Shown piece by piece: positions 4,761 to 8,694 of a stretch of 64,000 nt of DNA. This DNA comes from Pseudonocardiales bacterium. GTDB lineage: Bacteria > Actinomycetota > Actinomycetes > Mycobacteriales > QHCD01. The DNA lies in NCBI GenBank assembly GCA_003244255.1, contig QHCD01000067.1, forward strand, positions 1-64,000. The letters are read 5' to 3'. Under the pieces are notes generated by a model that did no database searches, was not told the origin of the DNA, and saw only the letters and a list, made by a program, of their open reading frames with translations. The stretch's first letter is position 1; each line of letters begins with the position of its first letter. Made by a program: the position numbers and the translations under genes.

Positions 4761-5597
4761 TCAGCCGCCGGGGTTGTCTCGCCGTCCGGCGATAACCCGC
4801 TGGGCGACGACGGCGAGGTCGTCGTCGCGCACCATGACGGCACCGTCGGGGGTCACGACCACCATCGTCGGGTAGAGATCGCGGGTGATGTCCGGGCCGC
4901 CGGTAGCCGTGTCGTCGTCGGCGGCGTCGTAGAGCGCCTCCAGCGCGACCCGGATCGCGTCGTCGCGCTCCAGGCCGGCCCGCCATCGCTTCTTCAGCGC
5001 GTTGCGAGCGAAGATCGAGCCCGAACCGACGCCGTGGAACCAGCGCTCCTCGTAACTGCCGCCGGTCGGGTCGTAGGTGAAGATCCGGCCCGCGCGCGCC
5101 GCATCATCCACATCGAGATCGAGGCCGGCGAAGATCGGGACGACCACGAGTCCCTGCATCGCCGCGCCGAGGTTGCCGCGCACCATCGTGGAGAGCCGAT
5201 TCGCCTTGCCCTCCAGGGTGAGCGGCGTGCCCTCGATCTTCTCGTAGTGCTCCAGCTCGACCTGGAAGAGCTTCGTCATCTCGTGCGCAATGCCCGCCGT
5301 GCCGGCGATACCGATTGCGCTGTAGGAGTCGGCAACGGCGACCTTCTCGGCATCGCGCTGGGCGATCACGTTGCCTGCCGTTGCGCGGCGGTCGCCAGCC
5401 ATCAGCACACCGCGGTCGAACGTAAGGGCGATGATCGTGGTGCCGTGCGGCGCCAGTTCGCTGGCGATGCCCGGCGGCAGCGGCCGGCGACCTGGCAGCA
5501 GGTCGGGGGCCGCCGCACCCAGGAAGTCGATGAACGACGACGAGCCCGGCGTGGTGAAGTGGGCCGGCAGGCGGCCCGGCCCGCGATGGTCGGCCAC
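4761..5597 (-). CDS. prcB: Proteasome beta subunit PrcB (precursor)
   Basis: Catalytic beta subunit. The sequence [18 protein letters not shown] places self-cleavage after Gly52, exposing Thr53 as the N-terminal nucleophile. The 52-residue propeptide carries the usual [13 protein letters not shown] patch. Other proteasome marks are DRRATAGN, the GTAGIAHEM segment and [14 protein letters not shown]. The mature chain is about 226 residues, normal for the family. It starts at ATG 5597 and lies just upstream of prcA. The usual upstream neighbour pup is displaced by a convergent nuclease gene at 5758-6828. Confidence 0.96.
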
Positions 5598-5757: not shown

Positions 5758-6828
5758 ATGGCATCGACCGCGCCACCGTCGCCCGCGGCAGGCCCGATGA
5801 GCGTGAGCGCGAAGGACCCCGACGGTCCCCGCGGCGGGCCCGAGCTGCTGATCGCCCGCAACCCGGACCCGGATTCCCGGCTGCCGTACCTGCTGCGGAT
5901 CCCGCTGGGCGCCGGGCTGGTGTTCCGCACCTCGGGCATGTGGCCACGCACCAAGGCGCTGTACTGCTACCCGGTCGACGACGCCGAGTGGCCGGTCGCC
6001 CCGGACATTCTCCAACGGGTTGGGGTGCGCTCCTGCGCCCGCCGCGGGGGCGCGATCGACATCGTCTTAGATCGTGGACGGGAGAACCGCTCGCAGCTGG
6101 TCTTCACCACCGCCCGCGGCCGCGAAGCGGTGTTCTGGCAGTCAGCGCGCACCCGCAAACAGGCCCGTCCTAACGTCGCCTTGCCGACCGCCCGGGCGGC
6201 GGGCATCGCTGAGCTGGAGATCATCGTCGACTCGCACGAACGCTACGCATACCACTTCGCCGGGCAGCAGGTGCGCACCACGCAGCGGGCTCTGCCGTGC
6301 GGTGATTACGGCCTGAGCGTGGACAGTCGGCTGGTCGCTGTCGTGGAACGCAAGTCGCTGCCCGACCTGGTCTCCAGCCTGGTCAACGGCACGTTGCGCT
6401 ATGCCCTCGGCGAGCTGGCCGCGTTGCCCCGCGCCGCGGTCGTCGTCGAAGAACGCTACTCCCAGCTGTTCAAGCTCGACCGCATCCGTCCCGCACTCGT
6501 CGCCGACGGCCTGGCCGAGCTGCAGGTGCGCTGGCCGGGCGTGCCGATCGTATTCTGCGAGGCGCGCCAACTGGCCGAGGAGTGGACCTACCGATATCTC
6601 GCCGCCGCCCGGGCCTGGGCCGACGCCGAGAAACCCGCCGTCGACCGCATCGGCATGACACCCAGCGAACTCGGGACAGCGACCGCACCGGACGCCCCGG
6701 GCCCCAGCACCGGCGAGGTCCGCTCCTGGGCGCGTGCAGCCGGTCATCCGGTTTCCGACCGCGGCCGGCTCCGGCCGGAGATCTGGCAAGCCTGGCGCGA
6801 CGCACAGTCCCAGCAGGCGCCCCCGTAA
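5758..6828 (+). CDS. ERCC4-type (XPF-like) nuclease with C-terminal Lsr2-like DNA-binding domain
   Basis: A 356-residue two-domain protein. The central domain has the XPF/Mus81 signature: IIVDSHER near 165, GDYGLSVDSRLVAVVERKSL at about 182-200 (the GDx(n)ERKxxxD metal site with the following Asp), then YVVVEERYSQLF-like strands. An N-terminal about 150-residue region (GLVFRTSGMWPRTKALYCYP) is of unknown role. At about 319-350, EVRSWARAAGHPVSDRGRL matches the C-terminal DNA-binding module of Lsr2, a minor-groove AT-hook-like binder. A structure-selective nuclease targeted to xenogeneic or AT-rich DNA is plausible. The start is uncertain: ATG 5758 is poorly spaced from AGAGG and ATG 5797 is an alternative. 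It is antisense to the proteasome genes on both sides. Confidence 0.85.
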   Translation: MASTAPPSPAAGPMSVSAKDPDGPRGGPELLIARNPDPDSRLPYLLRIPLGAGLVFRTSGMWPRTKALYCYPVDDAEWPVAPDILQRVGVRSCARRGGAIDIVLDRGRENRSQLVFTTARGREAVFWQSARTRKQARPNVALPTARAAGIAELEIIVDSHERYAYHFAGQQVRTTQRALPCGDYGLSVDSRLVAVVERKSLPDLVSSLVNGTLRYALGELAALPRAAVVVEERYSQLFKLDRIRPALVADGLAELQVRWPGVPIVFCEARQLAEEWTYRYLAAARAWADAEKPAVDRIGMTPSELGTATAPDAPGPSTGEVRSWARAAGHPVSDRGRLRPEIWQAWRDAQSQQAPP

Positions 6829-6840
6829 GGACGCTGCGGT

Positions 6841-7053
6841 CTACTCGCCGCCCTTCTGGACATAGGCCCGGACGAACTCCTCCGCGTTCTCCTCGAGCAC
6901 CTCGTCGATCTCATCGAGCATCGCGTCGACGTCCTCGGTGAGCTTCTCCTGGCGCTCGGCAACCGACGAGGACGCCGCGGCGTCGTCGACCGCCTCATCG
7001 GCCCGGTTGTTCTGGCGCTGCGCCCGGTTCTGGCCGCTGTCGTGGGTAGGCAT
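6841..7053 (-). CDS. pup: Prokaryotic ubiquitin-like protein Pup
   Basis: A 70-residue disordered tag protein. The N-terminal half is Gln/Arg/Asn-rich. The C-terminal half, residues about 33-62 (VAERQEKLTEDVDAMLDEID), is the helix-forming Mpa-binding region. The protein ends YVQKGGE. The terminal Glu is encoded directly (GAG then TAG at 6841-6843), so deamidation of a terminal Gln by Dop is not needed before PafA uses it. A good GGGAGGAAGG ribosome site precedes ATG 7053. It lies 132 bp downstream of dop on the same strand. Confidence 0.97.
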   Translation of the reverse strand: MPTHDSGQNRAQRQNNRADEAVDDAAASSSVAERQEKLTEDVDAMLDEIDEVLEENAEEFVRAYVQKGGE

Positions 7054-7185: not shown

Positions 7186-8694
7186 TCAACGCCGGCCGAG
7201 CGCCGCGACCAGGTCGGCCGCGCTCGCAGACCGGTCGAGCAGCGCGCCGACATGAGCCTTGGTGCCTTTCAGCGGGTCGAGGGTCGGCACCCGCGCCAAC
7301 GCCTCCTGGCCCACGTCGAAGATCACCGAGTCCCACGACGCCGCAGCAACCTGGGTGCCGTAGCGGCGGACGCACTCACCCCGGAAGAACGCGCGCGTGT
7401 CACTCGGCGGCGCGGCGACCGCCGCATCGATCTCGACGTCGTCGAGCAGCCGCGCCATCGACCCGCGGCCGATCAGGCGGTGGTAGAGCCCCTTCTCCGG
7501 CCGCACGTCGGAATACTGCAGGTCGACCAGCTGCAGCCGTGCGGCGTCCCAGCCCAGCTTGTCGCGCTCACGGAAACCCTCGAGCAGTCGCAGTTTCGCG
7601 ACCCAGTCAAGCTCGCCGGCGCACTGCATCGGGTCCTGTTCGAGCCGGACCAGCACCGATTCCCACCGTGCCAGCACGTCGCGGGTCTCATCGTCGGCGT
7701 CCGCGCCGTAGCGGTCCTCGACGAACTTGCGGGCCTGCTCGAGATACTCCATCTGCAACTGTACGGCGGTGATCCGCCGTCCGTCGGCCAGGCTGAGGCG
7801 ATGCTGCAGGGTGGGATCGTGGGAGACGTCGTGCATCGCAGTCACCGGCGTGTCAACGCGCAGGTCGACCGTGAGGAACTTGTCCTCGATCATCGAGAGG
7901 ACCAGTGCGGTGGTGCCCATCTTCAGATAGGTCGCGATCTCCGACAGGTTCGCATCGCCGATGATGACGTGCAGCCGGCGATAGGTCTCGGGGTCCGCGT
8001 GCGGCTCATCGCGGGTGTTGATGATGGGCCGCTTCAGCGTGGTCTCCAGCCCGACCTCGACCTCGAAGAAGTCGGCCCGCTGGGAGATTTGGAACCCGCT
8101 GCCCATGCCGTCCTGGCCGGTGCCGACCCGGCCCTGTCCGCACATCACCTGGCGCGAGACGAAGAACGGCGTCAGGTGCCGGACGATGTCGGCGAACGGC
8201 GTCGAGCGGCGCATCAGGAAGTTCTCGTGGCTGCCGTAGGACGCACCCTTGTTGTCGGTGTTGTTCTTGTACAGGTGGATCCGCGCAGCGTTCGGGATGA
8301 GCGCCGCCCTACGCGCGGCCTCGGCCATGATCCGCTCGCCGGCCTTGTCCCACAGCACGGCATCGCGCGGACCGGTGACCTCCGGAGTGGAGTACTCGGG
8401 GTGTGCGTGGTCGACGTAGAGTCGCGCGCCGTTGGTGAGGATCACGTTGGCCAAACCGGCGTCGTCCTCGGACTCCGGCGGGTGCGGACCGACCATCGCG
8501 GACAGGTCGAACCCGCGCGCATCGCGCAGCGGTGACTCCTCTTCGAAGTCCCACCGCGGCCGCCCGGCGCGGGTATCGGCGCGGCCGTAGGCGTTGACGA
8601 TCTGCGATGACAGCAGCATCGCATTGGCGGTCGGCTGCCCGGGCACGGCGATGCCGTACTCCACCTCGGTGCCCATGATCCGCCGCACGCTCAC
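7186..8694 (-). CDS. dop: Depupylase / Pup deamidase Dop
   Basis: A 502-residue PafA paralogue that hydrolyses the isopeptide bond between Pup and its targets. It shows GTEVEYG (8-14), the Dop-specific insertion loop at about 45-80 ([14 protein letters not shown]), Asp95 in [15 protein letters not shown] and the conserved [13 protein letters not shown] core. The loop and the greater length distinguish it from PafA. It starts at GTG 8694. Because Pup here already ends in Glu, the amidase activity is probably dispensable and depupylation is the main job. It is first in the dop-pup-(gap)-prcB-prcA-pafA series. Confidence 0.96.

Follow-up and report, generated by a model that had tools for sequence, protein, structure and literature searches.

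Nucleases with the ERCC4 domain (PF02732) include XPF, Hef, and MUS81, and an XPF-type nuclease core serves DNA repair in eukaryotes and archaea. The motif GD...ERKx3D defines the catalytic site of ERCC4 nucleases, and the repair nucleases of the XPF family use a tandem HhH module. Another domain that acts on DNA ends, the 3'-phosphoesterase of LigD (PF13298), has His/His/Asp as its metal ligands. Insertion sequences with passenger genes and with TnpB/IscB accessory nucleases exist, and it has been proposed that cutting by TnpB-type nucleases and homing endonucleases favours their own retention or spread. Lsr2-type silencers have been described, in passages of PMC7002338, as preferring AT-rich, horizontally acquired DNA.

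In this study, a gene combining features of several of these systems was analyzed in a stretch of 64,000 nucleotides (the window) from a Pseudonocardiales bacterium (assembly GCA_003244255.1, contig QHCD01000067.1). The encoded protein has the core, the fold, and the GD...ERKx3D motif in common with XPF, Hef, and MUS81; however, it matches no HhH or helicase family of Pfam, and it has an additional N-terminal LigD-like barrel and a C-terminal Lsr2 tail. With the Lsr2 silencer (PF23359) it shares the C-terminal DNA-binding module with R-G-R, but this module is joined to a nuclease instead of the Lsr2 oligomerisation domain (Pfam). No published description of an ERCC4-Lsr2 nuclease was found in the open-licence literature, which is weak evidence. 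We consider it fairly probable that this is a mobile accessory gene with no role in pupylation, whose product would cut DNA and would be directed to AT-rich sequence.

Domain architecture and predicted fold

The nuclease gene is an intact open reading frame that lies antisense between prcB and pup (Table 1). Its true start may be downstream of the first methionine, as most alignments with homologues set in only at around residue 25-29. It is present as a single copy in the window's genome (86% complete). The GC content of the gene is 0.718, compared to 0.674-0.705 for the Pup-proteasome genes, and composition gives no sign of recent arrival. The genome is a draft, and an assembly error at the prcB-pup site may have occurred.

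Table 1. Coordinates of the nuclease gene, its parts, and the surrounding genes in the window.
Feature	Position	Strand	Basis or remark
ERCC4-Lsr2 nuclease gene	5758..6828	+	intact ORF, 356 aa; alternative start 5797 (Met14)
N-terminal beta-rich domain, aa 27-132	5836..6153	+	AlphaFold2 model, VIA structure match
ERCC4 (XPF-type) nuclease domain, aa 157-279	6226..6594	+	Pfam 9.6e-18; Z 15.5 to XPF 2bgw
Catalytic motif E197-R198-K199-x3-D203, with G182-D183 upstream	6346..6366	+	identical in all 36 sequences of the alignment
Lsr2-type DNA-binding tail, aa 315-349, containing D-R-G-R, of which G336 is invariant	6700..6804	+	Pfam 2e-8; 2kng 5.3e-7; PF23359 also in the genome search
12-bp spacer separating pup from the nuclease gene, stop codon to stop codon (convergent)	6829..6840		sequence
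pup	6841..7053	-	PF05639 1e-27
prcB (proteasome beta subunit)	4761..5597	-	TIGR03690 9.4e-104
dop	7186..8694	-	TIGR03688 1.3e-225

The original prediction, made from the sequence alone, was of an XPF-like catalytic core joined to a module similar to the DNA-binding end of Lsr2, encoded antisense between prcB and pup. Both the architecture and the placement were borne out. The ERCC4 match in Pfam scores 64.9 bits (cut-off 24) and the Lsr2_DNA-bd match 33.9 bits (cut-off 26.9). A profile was built from an alignment of 36 sequences, comprising the window protein and 35 others picked from 45 intact non-redundant loci. When compared to the PDB, it retrieved structures of Hef (1j22, 3.5e-9) and XPF (from 3.6e-5) as well as 2kng, the DNA-binding domain of Lsr2. 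G182, D183, E197, R198, K199, and D203 are invariant in the alignment; with both the GD and the ERKx3D elements in place, the XPF-type active site is complete. No HhH family is matched in Pfam at E<=1. The Lsr2 tail stands in place of the HhH module, and the protein was classed as an ERCC4-domain nuclease and not as an XPF orthologue. The oligomerisation domain of Lsr2 is likewise without a Pfam match at E<=1.

An AlphaFold2 model of the protein (mean pLDDT 78.8, pTM 0.48) consists of three parts: a beta-rich N-terminal domain, the ERCC4 core, and a pair of helices at the C-terminus (residues 318-327 and 340-353) in the region that Pfam and 2kng identify as an Lsr2 DNA-binding domain. Structure comparison with VIA gave XPF, Hef, and MUS81 as the nearest folds for the core (Z about 12-15.5, and about 15 for XPF and Hef), with an rmsd of 2.0 over 127 residues to XPF 2bgw. 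The modelled N-terminal domain resembles the LigD 3'-phosphoesterase (3p43, Z 10.4, rmsd 2.8, 99 residues; 3n9b, Z 8.5), and unrelated structures scored lower, at Z of about 6. When this domain was predicted in isolation, with no alignment, the model was of poor quality (pLDDT 55.7). The domain has no Pfam match, and its sequence profile shows no similarity to that of LigD (hhalign E 0.4 over 8 columns). The LigD proteins of relatives display H-x5-H-x-D; in the window protein, inspection by eye placed P43 and L45 at the positions of the second His and the Asp, and residues 27-42 contain no His. The N-terminal domain thus appears to have a LigD-phosphoesterase-like fold but to be without the LigD metal ligands. 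No LigD_N domain was found in the host genome (86% complete).

Related proteins in the phylum differ mainly at the C-terminus. An ERCC4 domain was detected in 32 of 296 genomes of a phylum sample (33 matches), and 30 of the 33 loci were read by eye. Five encode an Lsr2 tail (the window's included), while 20 have the same front part, with the N-terminal domain and the ERCC4 domain in the order seen in the window protein, and no tail. A winged-helix-like tail is present in two (L278 and L279), and the remaining three show an HhH-like arrangement. Given these tailed, tail-less, and winged-helix variants, the Lsr2 tail may be a part that nucleases of Actinomycetota can gain or exchange. The tail-less forms have no conserved neighbour within flanks of about 1.5 kb; at two such loci (L269 and L270) a PIN-like gene, recognised by eye, lies downstream.

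In the PADLOC defence library no model covers the nuclease core. The tail of the window protein (aa 309-356) does match the C-terminal end of the type II methyltransferase model (MTase_II, E 6e-14), and a methyltransferase model ending in such a tail suggests that Lsr2-type tails get added to DNA-modifying enzymes.

Distribution of the family and the Pup-proteasome locus

The ERCC4-Lsr2 family is a patchy accessory family of Actinomycetia without a conserved neighbour. In a sample of the class, in which at most five candidates per genome were scored, 27 of 394 genomes (the window's own included) had a match at E <= 2e-50; at E <= 0.001 the number was 98, mostly with matches to the Lsr2 tail alone. 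Among closer relatives the gene was found in 12 of 61 genomes (own included; G405, fragments only). In genus g2 it was detected in 40 of 198 genomes at 1e-10 (G214 and G477, a short fragment only; G485 and G548, partial or in pieces). Records named as Mycobacterium belong to this genus: L031 is the same as L132 and L046 the same as L149, with 100% identity over the compared flanks. In named genomes, 60 loci were found. The gene is also present in 23 plasmid records, 14 of them from Mycobacterium and six from Rhodococcus. A phage origin was considered and rejected; no relative of the gene occurs in phage records, nor was any found on viral contigs in a search for close relatives.

A strict script scored 97 of 129 loci as intact (the window's and redundant loci included). 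Of the other 32, some are likely to be intact and to stop earlier at the C-terminal end, and others are truncated or frameshifted. Purifying selection was observed, with dN/dS of 0.085-0.170 in 13 chosen pairs. A quick tree of 46 proteins grouped them mostly by host family, with 12 label changes compared to a least possible number of 10 and a shuffled mean of 22.4; one label, that of L050, was misread (a Rhodococcus bin labelled as a cyanobacterium). As the gene tree mostly tracks host families, transfer seems to occur largely within families. An exception is Granulicoccus, which was placed beside Rhodococcus with a support of 99.

The position of the window gene raised the idea that it works with the neighbouring proteasome genes. 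The Pup-proteasome locus is tied to the DNA damage response through PafBC, according to passages of PMC8223512, and in this genome the gene does sit in the prcB-pup gap. The nuclease might be a Pup-proteasome partner in DNA-damage proteolysis, its antisense position serving to regulate pup and prcB or to be regulated along with them. However, the position is not conserved among the relatives surveyed. None of pup, prcB, prcA, dop, or pafA is present in the examined flanks of the 128 other ERCC4-Lsr2 loci (about 1.5 kb in some and up to 6 kb in others). In the set of 61 relatives, which includes the window's genome, 60 were found to have prcB, and 30 prcB loci were examined, one being the window's own; 28 of the 29 others have a readable pup, and none of these 28 carries an ERCC4-Lsr2 gene in the prcB-pup gap. 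The only other genome of the window's family in the comparison (G394) is without the nuclease gene. With 0/128 loci and 0/28 gaps, the suggested role in DNA-damage proteolysis received no support; a partnership with the Pup-proteasome is very improbable and close to refuted. What this means for proteasome research is negative: the neighbour of pup looks like a guest.

The original prediction also held that the nuclease gene splits genes that are normally adjacent. The split is correct for the window, but the adjacency does not hold as a rule: the prcB-pup gap measures 6-844 bp across the 28 relatives and is occupied in 11 of them. The occupant in these 11 (L107, L108, L109, L112, L113, L117, L123, L125, L128, L129, and L130) is an endonuclease VII-type gene in the same orientation as prcB, recognised by its HNH motif and confirmed by Pfam in three of the 11; remnants of such a gene were seen in the gaps of L115 and L124. 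This indicates that the prcB-pup gap tolerates guests, usually another nuclease. Seven queries revealed no endonuclease VII remnant in the gap of the window. In a limited search, no published description of endonuclease VII in the Pup locus was found; the main text of PMC2588565 has no word beginning with "nuclease", and "endonuclease" is absent from the searched text of PMC8223512.

Insertion sites and mobile elements

One empty site was worked out. At L046, the nuclease gene is flanked by a conserved block upstream and, on the other side, by a gene designated X, with a spacing of 1126 bp compared to 59 bp in G258, where the site is empty. The insertion opens with the apparent tail of a PIN gene, which leaves a nuclease unit of about 1.06 kb ending near the stop codon. 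Other genomes differ at the same spot: a VapBC-like pair (by eye) is present in G563 and G532, and a PIN toxin (Pfam) plus the nuclease in L049, while G188 has the nuclease on the other side of gene X. The spot is a site where accessory genes come and go, the nuclease among them. The window presents a similar picture at pup, with the nuclease gene ending against a convergent gene. Downstream neighbours lie within 60 bp at 45 of 105 loci, 30 convergent and 15 co-directional, as judged by crude ORF calling. The window copy probably landed at the 3' end of pup by chance. Placement of this copy inside an IS3 or IS21 element, or between flanking inverted repeats, was searched for with no convincing result, and the surroundings of the gene showed neither a recognisable transposase nor terminal repeats or a target duplication.

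Carriage by a transposable element is evident elsewhere. G608, a Mycobacterium-type genome of genus g2 assembled as a single 4.9-Mb contig, has eight copies of the nuclease gene. Seven (L159-L165) are inside an element of 2457-2460 bp, and these elements are 99.8-100% identical. They have identical ends with the inverted repeats TGAACC(G/A)TCCCGGGTTT, and all seven are bordered by target duplications of 3-4 bp (cgac, ctat, tcag, cccc, ggt, tac, and atg). The order within the element is IS3-type orfA and orfB frames, then the nuclease gene just inside the right end. Elements of this type are also present in L043 and L167 (96% identity) and on a plasmid of M. chubuense (L099; 94% over 2124 bp, left end missing); the orfB of L043 contains the HTH_21, rve, and rve_3 domains (Pfam). 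In G608, therefore, an IS3-family element carries the nuclease gene as its passenger. The Lsr2 tail is destroyed in five of the seven copies by a common 1-bp deletion; one of the five also has a second deletion, located in its nuclease part, and another IS3 copy has an extra base near the end of orfB. The tail-broken copies spread anyway, so that transposition does not depend on an intact nuclease in cis. The nuclease gene was also seen on two other plasmids in convergent orientation to istB of IS21, at distances of 37 and 52 bp.

The neighbourhoods as a whole are scattered. Conserved neighbours were considered as a clue to function and rejected; clusters of flanking ORFs from 60 loci proved to be mainly shadows of the nuclease gene and groups confined to a few related genomes. 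The nearest ORFs of non-redundant loci were surveyed with Pfam (106 upstream and 105 downstream, within 700 bp, crude calling by codon composition, loci other than the window's own two neighbours). Among the 25 commonest families per side, this survey gave PIN (6 + 3), Fic (2 + 2), and HipA (2), together with rve (3), DDE_Tnp_1 (2), IstB (3), and IS110 (2). At least 10 of the 211 nearest neighbours belong to transposase families; most copies are solo, and their nearest neighbour is not a transposase gene. Genes for PIN or Doc toxins are located about 31-123 bp upstream of the aligned nuclease start at L041, L049, L051, L052, and L084. Such proximity looks suggestive but may simply mirror how common toxin genes are in loci of this kind.

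Candidate functions

The mechanism that we propose follows the three parts of the protein. The Lsr2-type tail would settle the protein on AT-rich DNA, the N-terminal LigD-like barrel would probably help to hold the DNA, and the ERCC4 core, in which all catalytic residues are present, would cut it. What such cutting is for can be ranked tentatively: our first choice, as a possible purpose, is that foreign DNA is restricted or that mobile elements compete with one another, and repair and selfish spread follow at a short distance. A role in defence or in the cleavage of xenogeneic DNA, which was part of the original prediction, is conceivable; this reading is not helped by the lack of relatives among phage records and viral contigs. 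The protein unites an XPF-type core with the DNA-binding tail known from Lsr2, by which actinobacteria silence foreign DNA, and its gene travels both on plasmids and with an insertion sequence. Should the tail direct the cutting, AT-rich foreign DNA would be attacked and not only silenced.

Alternatively, the product may be a DNA repair enzyme that processes branched or flapped DNA, with the Lsr2 tail as a generic anchor and the gene exchanged as an accessory. The nearest folds of the core, those of XPF, Hef, and MUS81, agree with such a role, as do the likeness of the N-terminal domain to an end-processing domain of LigD, the tail-less relatives with both front parts in other Actinomycetota (20 of the 30 loci read), and the purifying selection. 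However, the distribution is patchy, repair-gene neighbours are not conserved, the tandem HhH module has no Pfam match at E<=1, and the LigD metal ligands are absent, so that we regard repair as somewhat doubtful. A selfish nuclease gene, the cutting of which favours its own retention or spread either alone or as the passenger of an insertion sequence, would account for the solo insertion at L046 with its empty counterpart in G258, for IS3 carriage and IS21 adjacency, for the eight copies in G608, and for the existence of broken and truncated copies. We consider this unlikely, as the five G608 copies with a broken tail spread nevertheless, the insertion sites have no evident common sequence by inspection, and transposase families are so few among the nearest neighbours.

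Comparison with TnpB/IscB insertion sequences leads to a related and more speculative proposal. In both cases a nuclease is found on insertion sequences and also alone; the fold is ERCC4 here and RuvC/HNH there, and the gene described here is the passenger of an IS3-family element and, on two plasmids, adjoins genes of IS21. A protein-guided counterpart of TnpB, that is, a lone XPF-type nuclease that spreads through the accessory genomes of actinobacteria by unrelated insertion sequences and by solo insertion, and whose Lsr2-steered cutting favours the carrier element, or the host against rival elements, appears distinctly unlikely; if true, DNA that is AT-rich, foreign, or silenced would be the target to which the tail steers the nuclease. 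The host genome also encodes a separate frame of 115 aa with a strong Lsr2 DNA-binding domain (C60:21087-21194), and a second frame with this domain, of 219 aa, was identified (C12:11738-11836).
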